Assembly (NCBI GenBank): GCA_013287585.1
Contig: JABDDN010000002.1
Coordinates: forward strand, 1-64,000
From: Nitrososphaerota archaeon
Lineage (GTDB): Archaea > Thermoproteota > Nitrososphaeria > Nitrososphaerales > Nitrosopumilaceae
Direction: 5' to 3'
DNA: 64,000 bases
The position numbers were made by a program, and so were the translations under genes. Within the stretch, counting starts at the first letter, position 1. The number at the start of each line of letters is the position of its first letter. The notes below the pieces were generated by a model that was given only the letters and a program-made list of their open reading frames with translations, did no database searches and was not told the origin of the DNA. This document shows, piece after piece, positions 45,644 through 62,369 of the stretch.

Positions 45644-46462
45644 CTATGAATTATTTTCTTCTTTTTCTTTAATATGATGATTATCTACATTTGTCTTCTT
45701 TCTTGTTACAAACGCATACCCAAAGGAAATAGAGATTATAGTTACAGCAAGAACAGGTCCTGCCCATTCTGGCAATATGTTCTTACTAGTAATGGTTCCA
45801 TACGATTCAAGTGAAGCAATAGTTACGGCAGCGCCACTTAGAGCATAAGCCATGTATCTAAAACCTTTAATATTGAATATTCTAGAAAATGCAGAACGGA
45901 GAATGATGCTGTCTAAGGTATCAACAGGTATCATTCCCATTGCAAAGAATCCAGCCAGAATCAGTGCTGTTTGAATTCCTACAGTAGCTGATGCAACAGC
46001 AGACAAGGCGATTGCAGAAATTTGTGTAGCAGTATCAAAACCTAAACCAAAAACTAAACCAGTAACAAGAGCAGAACCAATTGGCCCTAGCATTCCAGTT
46101 CTGTTTAGAACCTTGCTAGCAAGTATGGCTGAACCACTTCTTCCCCATTTTTTCATTGCATAGATATTGACAGCTCCGATAGTTCCTAGTGCTATAGCTC
46201 CTATTACACCACCCCAAAATGCAAGATTGTTAATATTTGTGATGCTACCAATTACATATATTATAAAAATCATTTCGGCTAGAACAGATATCATGTGACC
46301 AGAACTAAATCCTGCCCCTACCAAGCGAGATTTTTTTGTAGCATTATGTAGTCTGACCAAATTATCAATTGCAGTTATGTGATCTACGTCAAGACCATGT
46401 CTTATTCCGAGTATGAGCATAGTTGGCATTGATAACAAAACAAATGACCAAGCATCTACCAC
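45644..46462 (-). CDS. NiCoT-family nickel/cobalt permease
   Basis: 272 aa with about eight membrane helices. The NiCoT signature RHGLDVDHITAIDN (Hx4DH) is in helix II, GHMISVLAEMIF is the second signature, and LVFGLGFDTATQ the third. Imports Ni2+ (and Co2+) across the cytoplasmic membrane. Its position 4-9 kb from the urease genes fits nickel supply to urease; the His-containing tail (DNHHIKEKEE) is cytoplasmic. Two GTAAACT(A/G)C elements lie 110-150 bp upstream. Confidence 0.92.
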   Translation of the reverse strand: MVDAWSFVLLSMPTMLILGIRHGLDVDHITAIDNLVRLHNATKKSRLVGAGFSSGHMISVLAEMIFIIYVIGSITNINNLAFWGGVIGAIALGTIGAVNIYAMKKWGRSGSAILASKVLNRTGMLGPIGSALVTGLVFGLGFDTATQISAIALSAVASATVGIQTALILAGFFAMGMIPVDTLDSIILRSAFSRIFNIKGFRYMAYALSGAAVTIASLESYGTITSKNILPEWAGPVLAVTIISISFGYAFVTRKKTNVDNHHIKEKEENNS

Positions 46463-46746: not shown

Positions 46747-47823
46747 ATGGATTATCATAATTTTCATGGAAAAAACATTCCTCACATAGAAGTAAACCCA
46801 GACATGAAAATAGATGATCTTGTAGAAATTTATGCAAACTCGGGTTACAACGCAAGACAGCTTGGCGAAGCTGCAAAACTGTTCGTCAAGATGATTGAAG
46901 ATGATGCAACAATATGTCTTACTATTGCTGGTGCCATGACCCCAGTTGGATTTGGAGGTCTGTTCAAATCTCTTATTGAAAAAGGATTTGTAGATTGGAT
47001 AATATCTACAGGTTCTAACTTGTACCATGAGGATCATTTTGCATGGAATCTACCTGTAAAACAAGGGCATTTTGAAGTAGATGATATGATTCTTTATCAA
47101 AAAGATATCGTTAGGATAAGAGACGTCTATATCAAAGGGGAAGAAACGCTCAAGAAACAAGATTTGATTGTACAAAAAATGTTTGAAAATAACTCTATGG
47201 AAAAACCATTCACTACTGCAGAATTTGCAAACTGGATGGGTAAATATTCAAAAGAACATTCAAAACATCCAGAGAGAAGCTTTGTTGTTTCTGCGTATGA
47301 TTATGATGTACCGCTCTACATTTCAACATTAAAAGACTCTTCGCTTGCACTTGATCTTGCGCCTCTTAGACTTGCCAACAAACCATTTGCATTAGATTTT
47401 GTAAGAGAAATAATTGAACAGGCAGCAATTTTGTACAATTCAAAAAAGGCAGGAATTGTAGAGATAGGCGGCGGTGTACCCAAAAATACTGCACAGCAGA
47501 CAGGTCCACTATTAGATCAGATTTTAGGTCTAGGTCATGGAGGACAAAATTATATCATTCAGATTACTGACGCTAGACCAGATACCGGAGGTTTATCTGG
47601 TGCAACACTTCAAGAAGGCAAGAGTTGGGGCAAGGTAAAAGATTCTCATGAGGATGTCATTGTAGTTTATGCAGATGCCACCATAGCATTTCCAGTTCTG
47701 TGTTTGTATGCACTAAGTAAGGAAAGTCCACGAAAGCCAAAACGGTTGTACAAGAAGTTAGGACAATATTATGAGGAACTTTCTAAAAGTTATTTTAACA
47801 AAAAGAAATCAGGTAAACCATAA
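46747..47823 (+). CDS. Deoxyhypusine synthase-like protein
   Basis: 358 aa. NSGYNARQLGEAAKLFVKMI, TGSNLYHEDH, GGGVPKN, QITDARPDTGGLSGATLQEGKSWGKV and VYADATIAFPVL match deoxyhypusine synthase, including the active-site Lys in SWGK. The family transfers the butylamine group of spermidine to a lysine of aIF5A; some members are homospermidine synthases. It sits next to arginine decarboxylase, so it acts in or consumes polyamines. Which of the two activities applies is not decidable from sequence alone. Confidence 0.85.
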   Translation: MDYHNFHGKNIPHIEVNPDMKIDDLVEIYANSGYNARQLGEAAKLFVKMIEDDATICLTIAGAMTPVGFGGLFKSLIEKGFVDWIISTGSNLYHEDHFAWNLPVKQGHFEVDDMILYQKDIVRIRDVYIKGEETLKKQDLIVQKMFENNSMEKPFTTAEFANWMGKYSKEHSKHPERSFVVSAYDYDVPLYISTLKDSSLALDLAPLRLANKPFALDFVREIIEQAAILYNSKKAGIVEIGGGVPKNTAQQTGPLLDQILGLGHGGQNYIIQITDARPDTGGLSGATLQEGKSWGKVKDSHEDVIVVYADATIAFPVLCLYALSKESPRKPKRLYKKLGQYYEELSKSYFNKKKSGKP

Positions 47824-47855: not shown

Positions 47856-48407
47856 TTAAAGAATCAAGACCGCAGCAGCAAAGACTGTAGTCCACCTTCC
47901 CCTGGAATCTCCAATTGCACTCTGAGTGATGTTTCTAGTCTTGTATATCTGGCCAGACACTTTCCACTGTTGTCTTTTCTCATCCCAATTCTTGTCTACA
48001 TCAAATGGTATTCCTAGAGATGAGGCTAACATCTGTGCGGCAATATCTTCAGCATAATCACCAGCTTCTTTTCCTGTTTCACCAAAAGAATGATATTCAG
48101 ATAGATATCCCCATTTTTTCTTGTCACTTGGTTCTGATAATCCAACTGAAGCTGCCATCAGTCTATGTGGTTCATTGGATTGTTGTCGTGCATAGATTAC
48201 AAATTGAACGCTGCCTGGACGTATAAGCTTCAATCCTTCTGCACGTGAAATTATTTTTGCTCCTGGTGGAAATATACTTGAAATTAACACCAAATTCGTA
48301 TTTGGAATGCCAGCATCTCGTAATGCATATTCAAAACTTGTAAGCTGGTCTTGATGTACTCCTTTACCACTTGTAAGGAACATTTTTTTTGCAACTAAAT
48401 CTAGCAT
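47856..48407 (-). CDS. Pyruvoyl-dependent arginine decarboxylase
   Basis: 183 aa proenzyme. VLISSIFPPGAKII contains the Ser-Ser self-cleavage site that produces the pyruvoyl group; SVGLSEPSDKKKWGYLSEYHSFGETG and a Glu-bearing strand complete the active site. Makes agmatine from arginine, feeding the agmatinase at 60.9 kb. Convergent with the deoxyhypusine synthase-like gene (32 bp apart). An alternative start at M9 would shorten it slightly. Confidence 0.92.
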   Translation of the reverse strand: MLDLVAKKMFLTSGKGVHQDQLTSFEYALRDAGIPNTNLVLISSIFPPGAKIISRAEGLKLIRPGSVQFVIYARQQSNEPHRLMAASVGLSEPSDKKKWGYLSEYHSFGETGKEAGDYAEDIAAQMLASSLGIPFDVDKNWDEKRQQWKVSGQIYKTRNITQSAIGDSRGRWTTVFAAAVLIL

Positions 48408-48524: not shown

Positions 48525-50222
48525 TTAATAATAATGATGAGATGGTCGTTGCATCTTACCAAGCTTATCAAAGTGATCATGTGACTTGTTTCCTTTTGCA
48601 TGAGAATGAGTAGTACCATCACCATGGGTGTGAGTGTACATGGCAGGTTTTTTCATAACAACTTCATCTACACGAATTAATAGTGACGCTACTTCAACGG
48701 CTGTTTTAATTATTTGTTCTTTTACCACAAGAGGTTCTATAACGCCTTTTGAGTACATTTCTCCAACTTTTCTCTCAATTGCATCTATTCCGTACCATGA
48801 GTGAACACTTCCATTGTTGTGTTCAGAGTTTTTGTTTCTCAATTGAGCAATTGAGTCAACTAGATTCATTCCAGAATTTCTAGCTAAGGTTAATGGAATT
48901 TCTTCTAGAGCTTCAGCAAAATTTTGAATTACGGTTTGTTCTCTTCCTTCAATCAAAAATGATCTTTTTCTAAGCTCATTTGCAATAATTGTTTCAGTGG
49001 AACCTCCACCAGCTACTATTGATGGACTGATAAAGAAGTCGTTTAGAACCATAATAGCATCAAGTACTGAACGATGATACTCATCAAGTATTCTTTTAGA
49101 AGTTGCTCTCAATAAGATAGTAACTGATTTTGGGTTTTTACATCCCTCTACAAATACCATTTTGTCATCGCCTACGAATTTTTCATAAACTTTGCCTGCA
49201 AACCCCAGATGTTTTTCAGTTATGTTATCAAGATCATTTGTTATTAGACCACCACTTGCTTTTGATAGCCAATGGAGATCATTTTCTTTTACTCGACGAA
49301 GTGATATTATGCCTGCCCTAGACAAATAGTGTTGAGCCAATAGACTGATCCCTTTTTGGGAAATTACAACATTTGTACCAGAATTGATTATCTTTTGAGT
49401 TTTTTCCTTGACATCATCATTTTCTTTTGAAATGTATGTTTGCATTTCTTGTGGAGTGTTGATTGTTATTTCTGCATCAGTTTTGGTTCTCTCATTATCA
49501 AGTTCTTCGTTAATCAAAAGAATCTTGGCATTCTCAATTAATCTTGGCATAGCAGAATTATCTATTGTTTTGTCAATAACTACTCCTCTGACTAGTTCAA
49601 TATCTGATGTATTGCCAGGTTTTTCTTCTATCTTTATATCATCTAGCTCAACTTTTTTATTTGCAAAATCTGTTATTGTACAAAATGCCTCAGTCACTAA
49701 TTCCGCTACAGATTTTTTTTCACATAGTATCGAAATAGCCTTTGATCGTAAACATGTTTCAGCTAATCTAATCATCACTTCTTTATTTTTATGATTAGAT
49801 GATTTCGCAATTGATCTTACAATATCAAGTGACTGTTCTGCTGCTTTTTTGTATCCTGCCTCAATTGTAGAAGGAGACATACCAAAATCCAATAATTTTT
49901 CTGCTTTTTCAAGAAGAGAACCAGCTAAAACAACTACAGATATTGTTCCATCTCCTACTTCATTATCAACTGAATTTGATGCGTCTATCATCGCCTTGGC
50001 GGCAGGGTGCTCAACGTCAATTTTGCGTAACATTGTAGAACCACTTTTAGTAAGAGTAACTTCACCCAAAAGATCAATGTACATTTTTTCAAATCCTCTT
50101 GGTCCGAATGAACTTTTGATGAGATCTGCAATCAATTTGCCTGCAAGTAGATTGTATCTTCTAACCTCATCTCCTACAGAATATTGTGTATCGTCTCCAA
50201 GCAAGTCTCCTGTAGAACTCAT
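48525..50222 (-). CDS. Divergent thermosome (group II chaperonin) paralogue with His-rich tail
   Basis: 565 aa, full-length group II chaperonin. LLGEVTLTKSGSTML stands where typical thermosomes have TNDGATIL, so the catalytic Asp (GroEL Asp52 equivalent) is Ser. NEVGDGTISVV is the P-loop-like motif (usually GDGTTT), and SIVAGGGSTETIIA and HRSVLDAI keep the second Asp. The last 36 residues are YTHTHGDGTTHSHAKGNKSH and DHF...SHHYY, eight histidines, instead of the usual GGM-rich tail. It has its own TATA box (TTTATAATTA, about 50246-50255) and lies 75 bp from ureD. It may be a structural or specialised chaperonin subunit; a nickel-linked role is inference. Confidence 0.88.
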   Translation of the reverse strand: MSSTGDLLGDDTQYSVGDEVRRYNLLAGKLIADLIKSSFGPRGFEKMYIDLLGEVTLTKSGSTMLRKIDVEHPAAKAMIDASNSVDNEVGDGTISVVVLAGSLLEKAEKLLDFGMSPSTIEAGYKKAAEQSLDIVRSIAKSSNHKNKEVMIRLAETCLRSKAISILCEKKSVAELVTEAFCTITDFANKKVELDDIKIEEKPGNTSDIELVRGVVIDKTIDNSAMPRLIENAKILLINEELDNERTKTDAEITINTPQEMQTYISKENDDVKEKTQKIINSGTNVVISQKGISLLAQHYLSRAGIISLRRVKENDLHWLSKASGGLITNDLDNITEKHLGFAGKVYEKFVGDDKMVFVEGCKNPKSVTILLRATSKRILDEYHRSVLDAIMVLNDFFISPSIVAGGGSTETIIANELRKRSFLIEGREQTVIQNFAEALEEIPLTLARNSGMNLVDSIAQLRNKNSEHNNGSVHSWYGIDAIERKVGEMYSKGVIEPLVVKEQIIKTAVEVASLLIRVDEVVMKKPAMYTHTHGDGTTHSHAKGNKSHDHFDKLGKMQRPSHHYY

Positions 50223-50296: not shown

Positions 50297-51202
50297 TTAT
50301 GCAACGTCTATTGATGAATTTGAAATTGTGGGTTCTATTTTATAATTTTTTTTGGTAACACTTCTAAGAATACCAGATACAGATTCTGTTAGAGATATGA
50401 TTTCAGAAACAGAATCAGCAAGTATTCTCACAATAATACCAGAATTATGAGGTAAAGACGAACAACTAGCTAAAAGAGAAATATTTTTGGTAGCTAAATT
50501 AATTTCATCTACAATTCTTTCTATTTGAATAGAACTACCAATTATGTAAATGGTGGAAAAGATATCCTTTCCTCCAAATATAGATTCAAGATTTGCTTTA
50601 TCTTTATGACTCAAACTCATGACATCTGTAAATAGCATCTGACCATTCCTATGAGCTGAAGTGCGAAGGAAACAAAGATCAAAATCAAATTTTTCACCAG
50701 ATGCAATCCTACCAGCAGATATAATTTCAGAGTATACCAGAACCGCATTTCCCTCAACTTCAAGATTTACTTCCTGATAAAATCGAGATGACTTGAATGG
50801 TATGATCTGATGTGGAATAAATTCCAGATAGCTTCCTTCTTGATTATGTATACTAATGTATTGAGAAGCATAACCATCCTCCATCTTGTAAATTTTGGTT
50901 GCTGATTGAGTGGTAATTCTTGCTGCAGAATTTGTACCCATGACAACATCAATTTTCTGTTCATCTCCCTGCAAAATACCTCCAGAAGATGACATCATGT
51001 AGATGTGAGCAAAATTTGGATAATCTGTATCAGGGTATATCGCTTTTTGAATCAAAAATGGTGCTTTTGACAGTAGTGATTTAATGTATGTTTTAGAATC
51101 ATCATTTACTTGAAGCTCTATCTCTATGGTACCATTCTGACCTGGCATCTTTAATTTCTTGTTTACATAATTCTTGAAAATATCTGGAATTTGCGAATTC
51201 AT
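50297..51202 (-). CDS. ureD: Urease accessory protein UreD (UreH)
   Basis: 301 aa. SSGGILQGDEQKIDVVMGTNSAARITTQSATKIYKM is the UreD signature region, and YLEFIPHQIIPFKSSRFYQ follows. UreD docks on the urease apoprotein and recruits UreF/UreG for nickel insertion. Its ATG overlaps the ureG stop (ATGA). Last gene of ureEFGD. Confidence 0.93.
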   Translation of the reverse strand: MNSQIPDIFKNYVNKKLKMPGQNGTIEIELQVNDDSKTYIKSLLSKAPFLIQKAIYPDTDYPNFAHIYMMSSSGGILQGDEQKIDVVMGTNSAARITTQSATKIYKMEDGYASQYISIHNQEGSYLEFIPHQIIPFKSSRFYQEVNLEVEGNAVLVYSEIISAGRIASGEKFDFDLCFLRTSAHRNGQMLFTDVMSLSHKDKANLESIFGGKDIFSTIYIIGSSIQIERIVDEINLATKNISLLASCSSLPHNSGIIVRILADSVSEIISLTESVSGILRSVTKKNYKIEPTISNSSIDVA

Positions 51203-51864
51203 CTGATTCGATCCTTTTTGACAATTGGTTTTTTGTCAAACAGTATTGATTTGATTATGTTTTCGGCAACAAGCTCTATGCCCTCACCTGTTTGACAGTT
51301 AACAAACACGTAAGATTTCTCTGCTCGTATTTTTTTTGCATCTCTTTCCATTACAGCAAGATCTGCTCCTACATGTGCTGCAAGATCAATCTTGTTGATT
51401 ACAAGCAAATCACTACTTTCTATTCCCAATCCACCTTTTCTTGGATACTTGTCTCCACCAGCCACATCTATTATGTAAATGAAATAATCTGCAAGAGCGG
51501 GGCTAAAAGTAGTCATGACATTGTCGCCACCACTTTCAATGATAATCAAATCAAGACTAGGATCCTTTTTTTCGATCTCATCAATTACTGCTAAATTTAT
51601 TGTCGGATCTTCACGTATAGCAGTATGAGGACACCCACCAGTAGCTATTCCTATGATCATATTTTCAGGCATAACTTTCAACTCTGTAGATAACGTTCGC
51701 TGCATTCTTTCTGCATCTTCCTTTGATATTACATCATTTGATATTATACAACATCTGTAACCTCTTTTTATGAGAATGGGTACCACTCTCTCAATTAGAC
51801 GTGTTTTTCCTGATCCTACCGGCCCGCCAATTCCAAGTTTTGGTATTTTTTTATTTTTTAACAT
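51199..51864 (-). CDS. ureG: Urease accessory GTPase UreG
   Basis: 221 aa. GIGGPVGSGKTRLIERV (P-loop), IATGGCPHTAIREDP (the CPH nickel-binding motif), LIIIESGGDNVMTTF and VINKIDLAAHVGADL are the UreG/SIMIBI signatures. No His-rich N-terminal extension as found in some bacterial UreG. It delivers nickel with GTP hydrolysis. Located between ureF and ureD. Confidence 0.95.
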   Translation of the reverse strand: MLKNKKIPKLGIGGPVGSGKTRLIERVVPILIKRGYRCCIISNDVISKEDAERMQRTLSTELKVMPENMIIGIATGGCPHTAIREDPTINLAVIDEIEKKDPSLDLIIIESGGDNVMTTFSPALADYFIYIIDVAGGDKYPRKGGLGIESSDLLVINKIDLAAHVGADLAVMERDAKKIRAEKSYVFVNCQTGEGIELVAENIIKSILFDKKPIVKKDRIR

Positions 51865-51881
51865 CTAGATTTACCTCTAAA

Positions 51882-52583
51882 TTATGTAATGAACATTTTA
51901 GAATCATCATGCTCATGAATCATTTGAAAAATATCTGTCACAGGCGTTAGTTGCCAAAGACTGTTTAACGATTCTTTCTTAATGCTCTCTGAAATAGAAT
52001 TAATCTTGTCAGCAAGCGTTGTTAGAATTATCTGACCGCTTATGTGTTCTATTATTCCCAATCTAATTGCTGCTGCTATGACACTTTGGCTAAATGAATA
52101 AAGCATCATGCGTACACCGCTTTTAGCTGGAATGTCCAAAAGATTTGCAGCTATTCCTAAACAAACAGGATACGTCCCAACAGTTTCATTAGATGTTATT
52201 TTCTTTTGAAAATTTTTTGCAATGTTGTTTTTCTTTTTGTCAAATGTCATTTGAATAATACAATTCAGTATTTGGGAACCAGTTCTAACAGATGTGTTTC
52301 TTACTTCTCGTATGAGTCTCATCGAATAGAATCTATTATCTGCTTCCACAAGTTCTTCAATGTTTTCATTCTTTGCAGCCTCCATAGCAATCAAGAAAAC
52401 CATGCAATCGCAAGGTACAAGTTGAAATTCTATCTGCTGTTCAATAAAATTCAAAACATCTTGTTTGTTTTTGATTCTGTCATGCTTTACAAGTGACTCT
52501 AGACCATTTGATAGCCCAAACATGCCAGACGGAAAAAAAGAATCTGCCAGCTGCATTAAAAAAAACTCGTGATCAGTGTTCAT
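51882..52583 (-). CDS. ureF: Urease accessory protein UreF
   Basis: 233 aa from ATG 52583 (MNTDHEFFLMQLADSFFPSG); an ATG at 52598 would add five residues. DSFFPSGMFGLSNGLESLV is the UreF N-terminal motif, and helical segments including TYPVCLGIAANLL follow. Bridges UreD and UreG in the activation complex. Overlaps ureE by 11 bp from the chosen start. Confidence 0.9.
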   Translation of the reverse strand: MNTDHEFFLMQLADSFFPSGMFGLSNGLESLVKHDRIKNKQDVLNFIEQQIEFQLVPCDCMVFLIAMEAAKNENIEELVEADNRFYSMRLIREVRNTSVRTGSQILNCIIQMTFDKKKNNIAKNFQKKITSNETVGTYPVCLGIAANLLDIPAKSGVRMMLYSFSQSVIAAAIRLGIIEHISGQIILTTLADKINSISESIKKESLNSLWQLTPVTDIFQMIHEHDDSKMFIT

Positions 52584-53079
52584 GCATATACATTCCATGT
52601 TGAGGTTGAAAAATCTGCTCCCCTACCTCAATCTCTAGATTATTCATAACACCAACCAGTAGTTTCTTAAATATTTCAACTTCAGAATATGCCTGAATTG
52701 GAAAGTATAGGACATCATCACTGATCACAATTGGTTTGTGCCTGTTTCCTATAATATGACCTAGAGTAACTAATCCAGTTGGGTTTTTCTTTAATTTCTT
52801 TATTCTTATAGAAATCACTTTCTCTGGCAACTGTTCAATTATAATGAATTTTTTGAGATTTGATACTATAACATCGCCATGATGCAATCTTGTTCCAGAA
52901 TCAAGAATAAGACCTATATCTGTACCAAGATCTGTTTTCTTTCTAATTCTACTTCTTTCTAACTCAAGACGTGCTATTTTTAGTCTTTCACATCTTTTTT
53001 TGGATTCCATTTGTTTGAATTTAGTCATTAGTTTTTTGTCATCAAAAATATTTCCTATTACAGATATTATGGTAAGCAT
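52573..53079 (-). CDS. ureE: Urease nickel metallochaperone UreE
   Basis: 168 aa. An N-terminal peptide-binding-like domain (ERLKIARLELERSRIRKKT, TRLHHGDVI) is followed by the metal-binding domain with LGHIIGNRHKPIVI, whose GNxH is the conserved nickel site. The tail HGMYMHEH has only three His, so it lacks the long His-rich nickel store of many bacterial UreE. A TATA box at 53101-53110 gives a leaderless start. Confidence 0.93.
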   Translation of the reverse strand: MLTIISVIGNIFDDKKLMTKFKQMESKKRCERLKIARLELERSRIRKKTDLGTDIGLILDSGTRLHHGDVIVSNLKKFIIIEQLPEKVISIRIKKLKKNPTGLVTLGHIIGNRHKPIVISDDVLYFPIQAYSEVEIFKKLLVGVMNNLEIEVGEQIFQPQHGMYMHEH

Positions 53080-53154: not shown

Positions 53155-53472
53155 ATGATAGATATTGATATGATGCTTACCCCTAGAGAAATTGATAAAC
53201 TCTATATTTTTATGACGGCTGAAGTTGCACGAAGAAGAAAGGCAAGAGGGTTGAAGCTCAATTATGTAGAAGCTTTAGCGCTTATTGCAGATCACATCGT
53301 TGAGGGAGCTAGAGATGGAAAATCTGTTTCAGAACTAATGAGCTCAGGAAGAAAAGTGTTAACAAAAGATGATGTGTTACCTGGTGTTCCTGAGTTGATT
53401 AAAACAGTACAAACTGAAGCAACTTTTGATGATGGAACTAAGCTTGTCACAGTTCACGATCCCATAGTATAG
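53155..53472 (+). CDS. ureA: Urease gamma subunit
   Basis: 105 aa, typical Ure[43 protein letters not shown] and the C-terminal [18 protein letters not shown] are family signatures. First gene of ureABC, 2 bp before ureB. Urease hydrolyses urea to ammonia and carbamate; in an ammonia oxidiser the ammonia fuels energy metabolism. Confidence 0.97.
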
Positions 53473-53474
53473 CA

Positions 53475-53846
53475 ATGATCCCTGGAGAATATTTCTTAAA
53501 TGATACGCCTATTATTGCAAATAAAGGTAAGAAAACAATAAAGATCAAGATCAGTAATTCTGGAGACAGACCAATACAGGTAGGTTCTCATACACATTTC
53601 TTTGAAACTAACAAGGCTCTTGTCTTTTCTCGTGAGAAGGCATACGGTTATCATTTGAACATACCAGCAGGAACATCAGTTAGATTTGAACCAGGTGACA
53701 CAAAAGGGGTAGAACTAACAGAGTATGGTGGCATAAAAACAGTATATGGATTCAACGGTCTTGTTAATGGTAAACTCATTACTAAAAAGCAGACTGCATT
53801 AAAAAAAATGCGAAAAAAAGGATTCAAAAATATTGATCAGAAATGA
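53475..53846 (+). CDS. ureB: Urease beta subunit
   Basis: 123 aa. [39 protein letters not shown] and [10 protein letters not shown] are UreB signatures. Slightly longer than bacterial UreB because of a basic tail. Overlaps ureC by 4 bp (ATGA). Confidence 0.97.
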
Positions 53847-55555
53847 CATTGATAATTCCTAGAAAACAATATGTTGATCTTTATGGTCCTACCAAGGGTG
53901 ACAAAATTAGGCTAGCTGATACTGATCTTATAATTGAAATTGAAAAAGATTTTCAAAATTATGGAGACGAGATAGTTTTTGGTGGTGGTAAAAGTGCCAG
54001 AGATGGAATGGGACAAGCAAGTGGTGTTACTAGTAGAGGTGCACTTGATCTAGTAATAACAAATGCAATTATTATGGATCCTGTTCTTGGGATTATCAAA
54101 GTAGATATTGGTATTAAAAATGGGTTAATATTCGGAATAGGAAAAGCAGGTAATCCAAACGTTATGGATGGAGTAGACATGATAATATCTGCAAACACGG
54201 AGGTAATAGCTGGAGAACATACCATATGCACTCCTGGAATAATTGATACTCACATTCATTTTATTTCTCCACAACAAGTCGTAGAAGCAATTTGTAGTGG
54301 AACTACAACAATGATAGGTGGTGGCACAGGACCTGCTGATGGTACTAAAGCAACAACATGTACTCCCGGTCCTTGGAATATTCACAGAATGCTTGAAGCT
54401 CTTGATGACCTGCCACTAAATTTCGGTCTATTAGGAAAAGGAAATGATTCCATGGAACCTGCACTAATAGAACAAATTGCTGCAGGAGCTTGTGGTTTGA
54501 AATTACATGAAGATTGGGGTTCTACTCCTGCCACTATTGATGCAGCATTACGTGTTGCGGATAAAACTGACACTCAGGTAGCTATCCATACAGACACGCT
54601 AAATGAATGCGGTTTCGTTGATGATACTATTGAAGCAATAGCCGGAAGAACAATTCATACTTATCACACCGAAGGGGCTGGTGGTGGACATGCACCTGAT
54701 ATCATGAAAATAGCAGGTAAGAAAAACATCCTTCCTTCTTCTACAACTCCAACAAGACCGTTTACGGTTAATACTCTAGATGAGCACATAGATATGATGA
54801 TGGTTTGTCATCATCTAAATCCCTCTGTAAGAGAGGATGTGGCTTTTGCAGAGTCGAGAATCAGAGGTGAAACAATAGCTGCGGAAGATGTACTACATGA
54901 CATTGGTGCTCTAAGCATGTATTCCTCTGATAGTCAAGCAATGGGTAGAGTTGGAGAAGTAAGCATTAGAACATGGCAAACAGCCGATAAAATGAAAAAA
55001 ATGTCTGGTAGTTTAACAGAAGAATTAGGAGATAATGATAATCTTCGTGTGAAAAGATATCTTTCAAAGATCACCATCAACCCAGCAATAACACATGGAA
55101 TCTCTGATTATGTGGGTTCTTTAGAGCCAGGAAAATTAGCTGATATCGTGATTTGGAGTCCTGAGTTCTTTGGAGTGAAACCTAAAATGGTAATAAAAGG
55201 CGGGTTTATAGCTTATTCTTTAATGGGTGATCCCAATGCATCAATTCCAACACCTGAGCCAGTGTATTACCGTCCAATGTTTGGTGCACTTGGAAAGGCA
55301 ATACATACTACATCTGTAACTTTTACTTCAAAACTAGCAATACGAAATGGCCTATCAAAAAAAATAGGTTTGAAAAAGAAATTACTTCCAGTTAAAAATT
55401 GTAGAAAGATTGGTAAGAAAAATATGCTTTACAATAATCTAGTTCCAAAAATAGAGATTGATCCTGAAACTTACAAAGTTACAGTTGATGGAAAACTAGC
55501 GACAACAGAACCATCTCAAAAACTAGCCATGGCAAGATTGTATCACTTGTTTTAG
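53843..55555 (+). CDS. ureC: Urease alpha (catalytic) subunit
   Basis: 570 aa. Nickel ligands and catalytic residues are all recognisable: HIHFISP, the carbamylated Lys in [37 protein letters not shown]-type segment (here [17 protein letters not shown]), MVCHHLNP (flap His) and [12 protein letters not shown] (Asp ligand). Length and motif spacing are normal, so an active urease is expected. The stop TAG is followed at once by a TTCGACAATCGAA palindrome. Confidence 0.98.
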
Positions 55556-55608: not shown

Positions 55609-55863
55609 ATGAATCCTGTCAATACACGTGATGAAGTTGAAAAAGCTGCCAAGAAAGCAACAGAATCACTCTATGGTACAGAAATCCAAGATTTCAAGAT
55701 AAGAGAACTCTTTGCATTACCAGAAAAGGGCCCCCAAGATTCATGGGATGTACAAGTGACTTTTCTGTTAAACAAATTGAAACACACTGTAGATTTGGTC
55801 ATTCAACAAAAAGACGGTCACATAACGAATGCAAGACTCATTGACACAATGGTTCCTTTATAG
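55609..55863 (+). CDS. 84-aa protein downstream of ureC, unknown
   Basis: Alpha-beta pattern: an N-terminal helix (TRDEVEKAAKKATESLYG), then strands (DFKIRELFALP, SWDVQVTFLLNKLKHTVDLVI, HITNARLIDTMVPL). Compact and probably cytosolic. A TATTTTTATATTT box (55574-55588) lies about 26 bp before the ATG, so it is a separate leaderless gene, with the TTCGA palindrome just upstream of its promoter. No family recognised; a urease-linked role is only positional. Confidence 0.6.
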   Translation: MNPVNTRDEVEKAAKKATESLYGTEIQDFKIRELFALPEKGPQDSWDVQVTFLLNKLKHTVDLVIQQKDGHITNARLIDTMVPL

Positions 55864-56013: not shown

Positions 56014-56535
56014 ATGCCAAGTCAGGGATATGGAACCATAGGACTAAAACCTGCGATCATATCTGAACTACAAAAGGATACGGATGAATATTATCCTGGG
56101 ATGTTTCTTCCTAGCGCCTTGATAATTATGATGAATGAGGTAAAACGGAAGTACTATACAGTAGGGATGTATAACATAAAGATCGACTTCTCAGGAAGAT
56201 ATACTTCTTTAACAGTAAGATCAGATGTTAAAGAATGGTTTGAGGCAAATTATGAGATACTAAAGGAAAAATATGAAAAAAAATATAGAGCAAATAACTT
56301 TACAAAATTTGCAAGCATTTTCATGCTTAATATGTTTGAATCCAAGTCAGTCTCTCAAAACAACATCATCAAGCTAAAAGAGGCCGACTTTACATGGTTG
56401 ATTTCAGAATATATCCAAAGAAAGAAGGAATACGAAACAAAATACGGTATAAAAACATTCGAGCATTTTGCAGATATGTTTCTTAAAGACTTGTTAGAAA
56501 GAATCAACTCCGCAAAAAAAATATTAACGTTATAA
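56014..56535 (+). CDS. RHH-like / duplicated helical protein, unknown
   Basis: 173 aa. The N-terminus GYGTIGLKPAIISELQKDTD ... FLPSALIIMMNEVK resembles a ribbon-helix-helix DNA-binding unit. Two similar helical halves follow: EWFEANYEILKEKYEKKYRA..FTKFASIFMLNMFE and SEYIQRKKEYETKYG..TFEHFADMFLKDLLE, an internal duplication. Possibly a DNA-binding regulator; not identified. It has a TATTTAAATA-type promoter region upstream. Confidence 0.6.
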   Translation: MPSQGYGTIGLKPAIISELQKDTDEYYPGMFLPSALIIMMNEVKRKYYTVGMYNIKIDFSGRYTSLTVRSDVKEWFEANYEILKEKYEKKYRANNFTKFASIFMLNMFESKSVSQNNIIKLKEADFTWLISEYIQRKKEYETKYGIKTFEHFADMFLKDLLERINSAKKILTL

Positions 56536-57939: not shown

Positions 57940-59532
57940 TTATGCTGCTCCTCCGTGATTACCTCTACCAACTTGTCTTATGTCAATAGGGTTAACCCAA
58001 TCTTTTACATCTGCACCGGTAACAACATCAGAATCATTTGGTATGAGATACACAACTTCATGTCGCGGTTGGTATCTCTTTTGTGTTGCAAGGCTTACCA
58101 ATATGAAAATTGGAAGCGAAACTAATGGTGGAATAATTGTATCTAGTCCAGCATAAGCTACATATGGACTAGTACTAGGAGCATTAGTGATAAGGAAGAA
58201 TAGGATTAATCTCAACACAGAACCTACAACAATTGATGCTACAGCTCCAGCTGCGTTTGATTTTTTCCAGAATGTTCCAAAGACTAGAGGTACAAGACAG
58301 CCTGCCAAGACAATATCAAATGCTAGTATCAAATAAACACCAGGTCTTGGAATTAGATAACCTAATGCAAAGGCAGTAAAGAACATCGGAATAACGAAAA
58401 GTCTAGTAGATAGCAACAATTGTCTGTCAGTTAGTTTTTCTCTTTTCAAAAATCTTGTAACTATGTTACGTTGTAACATGTTTCTTGCTAGCACACTAGC
58501 AATTGCTAACGTTCCTCCATTTGCTGTAGACATACCACAACTTATTGTACTTACAAGCATCAAGATACCAATTACTGCTGGCAGGTGCTTTATAGCTATA
58601 ATTGGATAGAGAGTGTACGGATCATCTTTGACAACCTGCGGTTCAAGCGTAAGTCCAATTATTCCCATCATTGTAGTAGGAATAAGTATCAAGAGAGTTA
58701 ATCCTGCAGCCATGTAAGAGCCCTTTTGAGCTGTTCGTCCACCATCTGCAGCAAATACACGTTCCATAAAGTCTAGTGCAACAATGTCTCCCACACCTAA
58801 CGATATTATGCTTGCCCAATTAACTAACGCACCATTACCAAGATCATACAGACCAGACATGTCCATGAAGTTACCAGGTGCATTTGCCACTATGGTTTCC
58901 AGTCCACCTGGAATAGGCGACCATGGGCCAATGAAAAAGATAAAGCCTGCCCAGAATCCAACCACTGCCAGATAGATGTGGAAGATATCAGTGTACGCAC
59001 ATGAGAATAACCCACCAAAATACGTATACAACAATACTACAACAGTAGAAATCAACATAGCATAAATCAACGGTATACCCAAAACTACAGATAGAATGTA
59101 ACCACTTGCACCAAGGTTTCCAGCTACAAGTACTATGAAACTTATTGACATCAAAGTGCCTGACATGACTTCAGTAACATTTCCATAACGCCTATAGTAG
59201 AAATCTGCTAGCGTAATCATATTCATTCGATTAAATCTTTTTCCAAAGAAAGCACCTGTTAAAACAAGACAAATCGCCAAACCAAGCGGTATGACTGCAC
59301 CGCCCCAGAACCCAAACGAAGCTGACAACGACACATTTCCAAGCGATGCATTACCATCAACTGCTTCAGAAACCAACATTGTGCCAATAAAAAATAATGG
59401 CAAGCTCTTACCTGCTACAATGTAACGTTTACTACTTTTCTTAACAAATTTTACTGCAAGAACACCAATGGCAGCAGTAGCAGCGACGAATAATAGAACT
59501 ATAACTGGATAATAGAGAGGTATATCCGCCAT
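57940..59532 (-). CDS. SSS-family sodium:solute symporter, urea transporter (DUR3-like) candidate
   Basis: 530 aa from ATG 59532 (MADIPLYYPVIVLLFV), placed by a TATA-rich element at 59553-59566; the open frame continues to 59619 but past the promoter. About 13-15 membrane helices. SKRYIVAGKSLPLFFIGTML, NMITLADFYYRRYGN, VSTISCGMSTANGGTLAIASVLARN and GSYMAAGLTLL are family blocks. The 'GLAFSSADG/SCGMSTANGGT' region and a soluble C-terminus fit DUR3-type urea permeases; proximity to urease supports urea, but other solutes cannot be excluded. Confidence 0.82.
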   Translation of the reverse strand: MADIPLYYPVIVLLFVAATAAIGVLAVKFVKKSSKRYIVAGKSLPLFFIGTMLVSEAVDGNASLGNVSLSASFGFWGGAVIPLGLAICLVLTGAFFGKRFNRMNMITLADFYYRRYGNVTEVMSGTLMSISFIVLVAGNLGASGYILSVVLGIPLIYAMLISTVVVLLYTYFGGLFSCAYTDIFHIYLAVVGFWAGFIFFIGPWSPIPGGLETIVANAPGNFMDMSGLYDLGNGALVNWASIISLGVGDIVALDFMERVFAADGGRTAQKGSYMAAGLTLLILIPTTMMGIIGLTLEPQVVKDDPYTLYPIIAIKHLPAVIGILMLVSTISCGMSTANGGTLAIASVLARNMLQRNIVTRFLKREKLTDRQLLLSTRLFVIPMFFTAFALGYLIPRPGVYLILAFDIVLAGCLVPLVFGTFWKKSNAAGAVASIVVGSVLRLILFFLITNAPSTSPYVAYAGLDTIIPPLVSLPIFILVSLATQKRYQPRHEVVYLIPNDSDVVTGADVKDWVNPIDIRQVGRGNHGGAA

Positions 59533-59552
59533 GTTCTTTGTAATTAGTAATT

Positions 59553-59566
59553 GTATATTATTAAAT
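59553..59566 (-). promoter_or_regulatory. TATA element of the SSS transporter gene
   Basis: Minus-strand TTTAATAATATA-type element about 26 bp before the ATG at 59532. It decides the start against longer in-frame options. A TTCGA palindrome lies about 37 bp further upstream, in the position of an activator site. Confidence 0.5.
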
Positions 59567-59593
59567 ATGACGGTTTTGAGTCTTTTCAGATAG

Positions 59594-59606
59594 TTCGACT
59601 GTCGAA
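59594..59606. promoter_or_regulatory. Palindrome TTCGA-CTG-TCGAA (copy 3)
   Basis: TTCGACTGTCGAA, same arms as copies 1 and 2 with a different 3-bp spacer, about 62-74 bp before the transporter start codon. It also lies about 110 bp after the end of the zinc-finger gene, so a role for that gene is less likely. Confidence 0.5.
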
Positions 59607-59718
59607 TATCAATATACAAAATTCAAAAAAAAGGCTAAGAAATTGTGTTTTTTGTGGATTTGTCAATTGTTCAAACACTCAACATGAGCAATAACAGATT
59701 AGAACCAGAAAAGGAAAA

Positions 59719-59998: not shown

Positions 59999-60508
59999 TT
60001 ATGTCATTTTCTTTAGCTTTGAATAAAGGAATGGATCAAGTTTCCTTGCTGTATCAAAACACTTTTGTCCTTCATTAGCTTTATTTAGCATTGCTAACGC
60101 CCTACCTTTGTTATACCAAGCTTTTGCGTACTTTTCATTGTTCTCTATTGCTCTATCAAAGCATTCAATTGCTTCCACTAACCTTTTTAATTTAATCAAT
60201 GTCAATCCTTTATTATGCCATGTAATAGGATTGGTAGAATCAATTGCAATTGCATGAGAAAATGATTCTAAAGCCTCATCTGTTCTTCCCAATTTATCTA
60301 AAATCAAACCTTTATCACCCCATGCAAAATCATTGTTTGGTGAAACCTGTATAGCTTTATCAAAATATTCCAAGGCTTTCTCTGGTTGTCTTTGATTTGC
60401 CAGATCTTCACCATACTTGACATATTCTTCAGAAGCTTCTTTTCTGCTATGCCTAAATTTGTATTCTGGAGAAGATAAATTATTTTTTTTTCTTAACCAG
60501 CTAAACAT
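59999..60508 (-). CDS. TPR-repeat protein
   Basis: 169 aa with three to four tetratricopeptide repeats: ALEYFDKAIQVSPNNDFAWGDKGLILDKLGR, ALESFSHAIAIDSTNPITWHNKGL, AIECFDRAIENNEKYAKAWYNKGRALAML. The N-terminus is short and basic. A protein-interaction adaptor; partner unknown. Confidence 0.85.
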   Translation of the reverse strand: MFSWLRKKNNLSSPEYKFRHSRKEASEEYVKYGEDLANQRQPEKALEYFDKAIQVSPNNDFAWGDKGLILDKLGRTDEALESFSHAIAIDSTNPITWHNKGLTLIKLKRLVEAIECFDRAIENNEKYAKAWYNKGRALAMLNKANEGQKCFDTARKLDPFLYSKLKKMT

Positions 60509-60855: not shown

Positions 60856-61974
60856 ATGGGAATGGAATTCTATGGAGATTCATACAAGGGTAATGATGAA
60901 CCAATTTTTGTTGGTATACCAACGTTCTTGAAATTGCCTTGGTTAAGAAGTAAAGCAGAGTTGGAAAAGGTACGACCAGATGTAGCGGTAATAGGTGAAC
61001 CTTTTGATTTTGGAACAACTATCAGACCAGGTGCCAGATATGGACCAAGAGCTATAAGAGCAGCTTCAACTGTACCTTCTCCTCCATACGAACATTTCAA
61101 CATAGAAACAGGTGTTGACCCATTTGGAGTTTTCAGAACAGTTGATTATGGAGATGTTAATATTTCACCAGGCGATGTAGTAGAATCCCACAGAAGAATG
61201 ACTGACAAAGTCAAAGAAGTATTAGACGTTGATGGAATTCCAGTCATGCTTGGTGGTGATCACTCTATTACTTTTGCAAATGTACGAGCATTTGCAAAAA
61301 AGTACAAAAACATAGGAATGATTCACATTGATACACATGCTGATTGTGCCCCACAGGGTCTGTGCGGTTTCAAGTATGATCATGGAGCTCACATTAGAAG
61401 AATAATGGAATTAGGATGTCTGAAAGGAAAAAATTACACCCTAATTGGACCTCGAGGCTATTGGCCTGGACCAGATCTATACAAGTGGATGGCAGATCAA
61501 GACTTTCAATGGTTTACTATGCTAGATGTTGAGGAGTTAGGAATTGATAGGATTGCAAAAGAAGCGGCAGATAGAGCTAACGATAATGTCGATGCAGTGT
61601 ATATCAGCTGGGATATTGATACGTTTGATCCAGCATATGCCCCAGGAACAGGAGAACCTGAGCCAAACGGCTTGACATCAAGAGAAGGAATGAGATTAAT
61701 GAGATTGCTTTCCACATCATTTGATCCAGACAAGTTTGCATTTGATCTTGTAGAAGTTGCACCAAACTATGATGTAAGTGATGGAAACTCTTACAATGGA
61801 GGAATTACATCAGGCCTAGCAAACAGATTGATCGTAGAACTTCTCGCAGGATTATCTCTTACTAAGAAAGGCCAAACTGAAGGCAAACCGGTAAGACCAC
61901 ATGCGTATCGTGGAAAAAATCACACATATGACTTTGGAAATGGTCCAAAGGCACAGATTCCAAAAAGAAATTGA
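60856..61974 (+). CDS. Agmatinase-family ureohydrolase
   Basis: 372 aa, longer than usual agmatinase (about 290-320). GIPTFLKLP, IRPGARYGPRAIRAAS, GGDHSIT (metal His136), HIDTHADC (Asp159, His161, Asp163) and SWDIDTFDPAYAPGTGEPE (Asp253, Asp255) give the full two-metal site. The family hydrolyses guanidino compounds to release urea: agmatine, guanidinobutyrate, arginine or, in a nickel-dependent branch, guanidine. The presence of arginine decarboxylase favours agmatine; the N-terminal 40-residue and C-terminal 40-residue extensions leave other substrates open. Its TGA overlaps the start of a urease-gamma-like gene (TTGA). Confidence 0.88.
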   Translation: MGMEFYGDSYKGNDEPIFVGIPTFLKLPWLRSKAELEKVRPDVAVIGEPFDFGTTIRPGARYGPRAIRAASTVPSPPYEHFNIETGVDPFGVFRTVDYGDVNISPGDVVESHRRMTDKVKEVLDVDGIPVMLGGDHSITFANVRAFAKKYKNIGMIHIDTHADCAPQGLCGFKYDHGAHIRRIMELGCLKGKNYTLIGPRGYWPGPDLYKWMADQDFQWFTMLDVEELGIDRIAKEAADRANDNVDAVYISWDIDTFDPAYAPGTGEPEPNGLTSREGMRLMRLLSTSFDPDKFAFDLVEVAPNYDVSDGNSYNGGITSGLANRLIVELLAGLSLTKKGQTEGKPVRPHAYRGKNHTYDFGNGPKAQIPKRN

Positions 61975-62369
61975 TTAGAATTGAGATAGTGGTAAAGGGA
62001 GAATCGGATCTTTCCTTTACCAAATTGTTTGAATTCAGAAATGAAGACGATGCAATTTTTCATAATGTCGTAGAATTAGTCAAGGACAAACTCTCGAAAA
62101 ATTTGAAACTAAACGTCAATGAAGCTTTGTCAGTATATTGTGCGTACATAGTAAGTGAAATACGTTCAAACAAATCTGAATCAGAAATAGTAAATAATTC
62201 ATCAAAAATTTTAACAAGAGATAATGTTTTAATCGGAGTTCCAGAAACATTAAGAGAAATTACATTCAATATCACTTTAGATAATTTTCCAAAAAAGATA
62301 ATTAAATATATTGAACCAATTCCAACTGCAAATTACATAATGGTAGATTCTGAAGCAAATGAGAATTAA
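61971..62369 (+). CDS. Urease gamma (UreA)-like orphan protein coupled to agmatinase
   Basis: 132 aa from a TTG that overlaps the agmatinase stop. Residues 45-118 align with UreA residues 31-104 with about 28-29 identities in 74 positions by eye, without gaps: NLKLNVNEALS vs [17 protein letters not shown] vs KSVSEL, KILTRDNVLIGVPE vs [14 protein letters not shown]. The N-terminal 30 residues and the C-terminal 15 differ. The real ureA is 8 kb away in a complete operon, so this is a second, diverged copy in an operon with a urea-producing enzyme. No ureB/ureC-like partner follows. Role unknown. Confidence 0.8.
   Translation: MIRIEIVVKGESDLSFTKLFEFRNEDDAIFHNVVELVKDKLSKNLKLNVNEALSVYCAYIVSEIRSNKSESEIVNNSSKILTRDNVLIGVPETLREITFNITLDNFPKKIIKYIEPIPTANYIMVDSEANEN

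Follow-up and report, generated by a model that had tools for sequence, protein, structure and literature searches.

Many ammonia-oxidising archaea encode an extra chaperonin subunit with a histidine-rich C-terminal tail. This subunit occurs together with a ureohydrolase gene cassette, not with urease itself, and its link to urease is mostly indirect. We analysed a window of 64,000 nucleotides (the whole stretch of DNA considered here) from an archaeon of the Nitrosopumilaceae, in which the cassette lies 5–14 kb from the chaperonin gene; the sequence-only reading of this DNA had not mentioned the cassette. The genes of interest are as follows, with their frequency among 80 chaperonin loci and, for two of them, among 16 urease loci that lack the chaperonin:

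45644-46462, minus strand: NicO/NiCoT-type nickel-cobalt transporter (PF03824, 71.7 bits; 11/80 loci)
48525-50222, minus strand: His-tailed group II chaperonin paralogue, 565 aa, tail at residues ~529-565
50297-53079, minus strand: urease accessory genes ureD, ureG, ureF and ureE
53155-55555, plus strand: urease subunit genes ureA, ureB and ureC
55609-55863, plus strand: conserved 84-aa cassette protein (61/80 chaperonin loci; 2/16 chaperonin-less urease loci)
56014-56535, plus strand: conserved 173-aa cassette protein (48/80 chaperonin loci; 1/16 chaperonin-less urease loci)
57940-59619, minus strand: SSS-family symporter, 559 aa (PF00474; at most 9 kb from the chaperonin in 67/80 loci)
59999-60508, minus strand: TPR-repeat cassette protein (38/80 loci)
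60856-61974, plus strand: arginase/agmatinase-family ureohydrolase, 372 aa (PF00491, 267 bits)
61971-62369, plus strand: divergent urease gamma (UreA)-like paralogue (PF00547, 47 bits, above cut-off; 47/80 chaperonin loci)

The chaperonin gene is one open frame, and its translation confirmed the features first read from the letters: TKSG at residues 58–61, GDGTIS at residues 90–95 and eight histidines among the last 36 residues of a protein that ends in YTHTHGDGTTHSHAKGNKSHDHFDKLGKMQRPSHHYY. The Cpn60_TCP1 domain (PF00118; 494.7 bits, E 3.7e-148) and the NCBIfam thermosome models (NF041082, 540 bits against a cut-off of 450; TIGR02339, 531 bits, below its cut-off of 671) put the protein among the group II chaperonins, or thermosomes. 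An AlphaFold2 model built with 30 homologues (mean pLDDT 84.1, pTM 0.80) predicts the three-domain fold with its apical lid region (TM 0.86/0.93 to 1q3r over 527 columns), and its top Foldseek matches in the PDB were the thermosome of Thermococcus KS-1 (1q3r) and Mm-cpn of Methanococcus maripaludis (3rus). Residues 542–565 fall under a pLDDT of 50, which predicts disorder for most of the tail. By modelled fold and by clade (see below), the window protein is a group II chaperonin and a putative chaperonin ATPase. The same genome encodes two ordinary thermosome subunits, 44–46% identical to it, with TNDG and with tails that are Gly/Met-rich or short.

We searched 400 genomes of the class with the window protein and then with a 30-sequence profile. 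A score gap separated the tailed family (at least 678 bits) from ordinary thermosomes (at most 625 bits), and reading of the loci gave 80 distinct tailed sequences from Nitrosopumilaceae and Nitrososphaeraceae; one further family member (G210) is a truncated gene. Genome G318 carries two copies (L077 and L107), and each copy has a separate set of SSS, 84-aa and ureohydrolase genes close by. The phylogeny with other thaumarchaeal thermosomes that the sequence-only reading had called for, computed with the tail removed, grouped the tailed chaperonins together (SH-aLRT 99, stem 0.85), separate from ordinary thermosomes. The family is real and conserved, and apparently undescribed so far: a literature search covering open-licence papers only returned no account of this chaperonin tail or gene cassette.

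A different chaperonin homologue, an Hsp60, has been described in urease loci of Nitrosocaldus and Nitrososphaerales and was not found in Nitrosopumilales (Abby et al. 2018, PMC5797428). The Hsp60 encoded between ureC and ureE in loci L109–L112 fits that protein by gene position and taxon; it has 515–518 aa, scores 114–126 bits against the window protein and sits on a stem of 3.12. Although both proteins are chaperonin homologues in urease loci of ammonia-oxidising archaea, the Hsp60 retains NDG, lacks a His tail and falls far from the tailed chaperonins in the tree (separate groups, SH-aLRT 100 and 99). Tree and gene position thus reject the identity of the two, which belong to different families.

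The tail follows the pattern [T/S]H[TCS]H-x-[D/N]G-xx-H[S/A]H-...-H[D/N]H[F/W]-...-G-xx-QR-xx-H[H/Q]YY. Six of its histidines (H531, H533, H539, H541, H548 and H562) are invariant in 80/80 homologues, as are G555, Q558 and R559, and H550 and H563 are kept in 79/80 and 75/80. Mean pairwise identity is higher in the tail (66%) than in the body (54%), and in 82% of random pairs it is the tail that is better conserved. Because 80 distinct homologues carry the tail with invariant residues, it is not a product of chance. Its histidines are conserved and clustered, as in metal-binding His-rich proteins, and from the invariant HxH...HxH...HxH...HH pattern we can soundly infer that the tail binds metal. 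A DNA signature of the last codons of the chaperonin, searched in 80 genomes, recovered 13/14 known carriers and only two other genomes: G193, which has the cassette ureohydrolase, and G362, which is 72% complete and belongs to the same genus as known carriers. Could the protein instead be an ordinary thermosome paralogue whose tail serves assembly or localisation, with no metal bound in the cell? Its fold and lid resemble those of ordinary thermosomes and the conserved aromatic HHYY terminus could serve in docking, but the spaced HxH pairs are invariant across two families and the distribution described below is cassette-specific, which makes this explanation very unlikely.

The sequence-only reading had also proposed a possibly impaired ATPase. 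With residue numbering relative to GroEL and Mm-cpn that we take from the spacing to the GGG motif and from general knowledge, the catalytic Asp triad of GroEL (D52, D87, D398) corresponds to S60, D91 and D388 in the window protein, in which the triad is therefore incomplete by the Asp52 equivalent only. Across the 80 members, the D87 equivalent is Asp in 80/80, 30 members have Asp at residue 60, with His (37), Asn (8) or Ser (5) in the others, and 34 have Asp at residue 388 (Mm-cpn D386), with Asn (39) or Ser (7) in the others. This second catalytic Asp, absent from the sequence-only reading, is thus replaced in 46/80 homologues. Both variable Asp are lost in 38/80 members and the triad is complete in 22/80, with several losses of either residue in the family. 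Impairment is therefore plausible for the window protein, with Ser at its Asp52 equivalent, but it is no family property; ATP hydrolysis is probably reduced in many members, through separate losses. The motifs for nucleotide binding (GPxG, GDGT and GxG) are retained. Loss of the catalytic Asp in many members suggests that the subunit's own ATP hydrolysis is often dispensable, as would fit one subunit among ATPase-competent partners. An EDG-to-xxP change before GGG was considered as the loss of GroEL D398 and rejected: in a control alignment, ordinary thaumarchaeal thermosomes have EKP there, and the true position is D388.

The cassette was recognised by clustering the neighbouring genes of chaperonin loci. 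It comprises the SSS symporter, the arginase-family ureohydrolase, the UreA-like paralogue and the 84-aa, 173-aa and TPR proteins. Within 9 kb of the chaperonin in the 80 loci, many of which are cut by contig ends, we counted the SSS gene in 67, the 84-aa gene in 61, the ureohydrolase gene in 56, ureC in 30 and ureD in 26. The 84-aa and 173-aa proteins are nearly confined to chaperonin-bearing loci and had no match in Pfam or NCBIfam. The UreA-like gene lies outside the urease operon and shares 4 bases with the end of the ureohydrolase gene; its product could connect ureohydrolase with urease as an adaptor. The cassette symporter belongs to a subfamily distinct from the 650–920-aa DUR3-type transporters of chaperonin-less urease loci, a label based on size and position rather than on a model match. 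With DUR3-type transporters in those loci, the substrate of the cassette symporter is probably not urea.

Gene order varies between lineages. In the window, the chaperonin gene follows ureD by 75 bases on the same strand, so it probably forms one operon here with the ureD, ureG, ureF and ureE genes, and the order ureEFGD-chaperonin recurs in the window genus and in Nitrosotalea-like genomes with gaps of 73–134 bp. In many marine lineages the chaperonin gene comes 32–111 bp after the SSS gene on the same strand, and in soil lineages it adjoins ureA, the UreA-like gene or the 84-aa gene.

We scored genomes for the chaperonin, ureC and the cassette ureohydrolase, whose orthologues share at least 77% identity (about 29–38% for other agmatinases); genera and completeness classes were typed from printed tables. 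With only three candidates scored in each genome, the search overlooked several chaperonins; reading of the loci together with the DNA signature served as a check, by which six genomes first scored as negative proved positive. Among 172 genomes of the two families with at least 90% completeness, 57 have both chaperonin and ureohydrolase, 1 the chaperonin only, 2 the ureohydrolase only and 112 neither. The corresponding figures for the 87 urease-positive near-complete genomes are 55, 1, 2 and 29, so that the chaperonin is present in 55/57 genomes with the ureohydrolase and in 1/30 without it. The exceptions (G194, chaperonin only; G037 and G185, ureohydrolase only) are fragmented assemblies, with the genes on short contigs or the genomes incomplete. 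Because 11 genera hold both-gene genomes as well as neither-gene genomes, the concordance recurs within genera and shared ancestry alone is insufficient to explain it; these within-genus contrasts are better evidence than the P values of co-occurrence, which assume independence.

These figures bear on the role first proposed for the chaperonin, namely that it binds nickel and helps UreEFGD to activate urease. Urease is present in 56/58 near-complete chaperonin genomes, the ureEFGD-chaperonin order noted above places the gene among urease accessory genes in some lineages, and a NicO gene lies nearby. The converse did not hold: the chaperonin is absent from 31/87 urease-positive genomes, where a urease accessory factor should co-occur with urease regardless of other genes, and 29/30 near-complete urease-positive genomes without the cassette also lack it. 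Thus, archaeal urease does not need the tailed chaperonin. UreE, correctly read earlier as lacking a long His tail (it has a short ...HEH end), lacks one whether the chaperonin is present or absent and so does not explain the chaperonin; compensation for chaperonin absence by the His content of UreE or UreG was rejected, as no difference was seen. With marine lineages pairing the chaperonin with the SSS gene instead, a urease maturation factor is unlikely. We met no convincing case of the tail without urease among the genomes scored: the tail without a detected urease gene was seen only in G232, G277 and G353, which belong to a single genus and have fragmented assemblies, and ureC is present in the two remaining members of that genus. 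Since the cassette enzyme is expected to release urea, urease is probably required as a downstream step.

Alternatively, the protein could be a general store or buffer for nickel or another metal, comparable to Hpn or the tail of Helicobacter HspA, for which chaperonin activity would be of secondary importance. The invariant multi-His tail, the loss of catalytic Asp in many members and the nearby NicO genes would all agree with a store, which should however track urease or nickel import in all lineages, yet the chaperonin tracks the cassette. The apical domain, the lid region and the ATP-site glycines are moreover well preserved, and we regard a mere store as quite unlikely.

Which cassette protein would be the client? 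Co-occurrence does not tell the ureohydrolase apart from its partners, the SSS, UreA-like, 84-aa and 173-aa proteins. The ureohydrolase retains GGDH, DxHAD and DIDxFD in essentially all sequences, and the window enzyme has all metal ligands. Its nearest PDB entries are guanidinobutyrase 3nio and then guanidine hydrolase 7esr. Known guanidinases such as the guanidine hydrolase GdmH have GTGWPEP near the active site; the cassette enzyme has GTGEPEP, with Glu in place of the Trp in 72/72 cassette sequences covering the site. Mn2+ is the metal of most arginase-family enzymes, and the ureohydrolase sequence does not distinguish nickel from manganese. In none of 16 cassette genomes was HypA or HypB found above cut-off; what matched hypB was UreG or weaker GTPases. 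Known Ni-dependent ureohydrolases of the superfamily need HypA/HypB (PMC11399263), and Ni-ureohydrolase loading in Nitrospira inopinata, where HypA/HypB are absent, has been called unclear (PMC11410670). Two studies state that ammonia-oxidising archaea lack a guanidinase (PMC11410670; PMC12625717, the latter for its floodplain genomes), and a third notes that most of these archaea have 2–3 speB copies, whose role it left unassigned (PMC10753782).

The most direct hint comes from a single genome, G112, which has the cassette and, by profile and signature, no tailed chaperonin. Its ureohydrolase (L123, 12521-13837) carries a His-rich C-terminal extension, with GRTHIHSHKHGHHAHNH near the C-terminus, unlike all other cassette ureohydrolases read, and this hints that the His tail may serve the ureohydrolase. 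A search for further genomes of this kind found one other genome in its family, which lacks the enzyme. A NicO-like transporter with a His-rich loop adjoins the G112 enzyme (L123, 11441-12199). A different member of the cassette could also be the client, such as the UreA-like paralogue alone or in complex with the ureohydrolase, since the gene of this paralogue overlaps that of the ureohydrolase or comes right after it, and adjoins the chaperonin in many soil lineages. Such a client seems distinctly unlikely: UreA-like proteins are divergent (28–57 bits to UreA by phmmer), the ureohydrolase is about 80–100% conserved, and the G112 His tail sits on the ureohydrolase.

With the clade, the invariant histidines, the cassette and the co-occurrence established, we favour, at a probability of roughly 45%, a chaperonin chamber that folds and/or metal-loads (perhaps with nickel) the cassette ureohydrolase, as part of a cassette leading from guanidino import to urease. 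The SSS symporter would import a guanidino-type compound, the ureohydrolase would split it to urea and the urea would be passed to urease, the specialised thermosome-type subunit folding and/or metal-loading the ureohydrolase. C-terminal tails of group II chaperonins point into the central cavity. The 36-residue His-rich tails would turn the chamber into a multivalent binding site beside its client, for Ni2+ or some other divalent metal, whether the subunit forms homo-oligomers or joins the two ordinary subunits. Against this reading count the use of Mn2+ by most of the arginase family, the G112 case being one genome, the equal fit of the co-occurrence to the other cassette proteins, and the position of the chaperonin after ureEFGD, not the ureohydrolase, in the window lineage. 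A more specific version, in which the caged His tails give nickel to a new Ni-dependent ureohydrolase, replace HypA/HypB and so open a guanidino nitrogen source via symporter, ureohydrolase and urease, is possible but doubtful.

How does the tailed chaperonin compare with known systems? It shares with archaeal thermosomes (1q3r, 3rus) the full-length three-domain fold and lid, the GPRG, GDGT, GGG and nucleotide-site residues and about 40% identity, but its tail is His-rich, not Gly/Met-rich, the catalytic Asp is substituted in most members, and it forms a fast-evolving separate clade linked to a catabolic cassette. By analogy it resembles His-tailed metal-handling components, yet is group II by sequence and fold. 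Helicobacter pylori HspA, a GroES with a His/Cys-rich Ni-binding C-terminus, likewise gained its tail within a chaperonin system and serves a nickel enzyme, hydrogenase rather than urease (PMC3856676); unlike the archaeal protein, it is a bacterial co-chaperonin in a single essential copy, and archaeal group II chaperonins work without GroES. Mycobacterial GroEL1 is a chaperonin paralogue whose Gly/Met tail turned His-rich and is reported to bind Cu(II) (PMC10170517); it is a bacterial group I protein, concerned with copper and not with a Ni/Mn enzyme, and has no known ureohydrolase/urease cassette. HypA/HypB, which load nickel into GdmH and metformin hydrolase (PMC11399263), are also dedicated ureohydrolase helpers encoded with a nickel transporter and urea genes, but they are a metallochaperone and a GTPase, not a chaperonin. 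Our results suggest that a chaperonin has been adapted to a single metabolic cassette, and they bear on how Ni-ureohydrolases are loaded where HypA/HypB are absent. The cassette, with its symporter, highly conserved ureohydrolase and UreA-like protein, may give abundant ammonia-oxidising archaea nitrogen beyond ammonia and urea.

Several neighbouring features were also observed. In the complete Nitrosotalea-like genome G079 (L066), low-scoring ureG and ureD remnants lie beside the chaperonin and ureC is ~115 kb away, which we read as local decay with relocation or replacement of urease. The cassette ureohydrolase frame at L091 12456 has 700 aa, of which only the first ~239 residues match the family before unrelated sequence, a possible misassembly or fusion. 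Beside the window chaperonin lie a homospermidine/deoxyhypusine-synthase-like gene (46747-47823, plus strand) and a pyruvoyl-dependent arginine decarboxylase gene (47856-48407, minus strand), possibly representing polyamine metabolism tied to urea release, and many related loci hold a second synthase-like gene.
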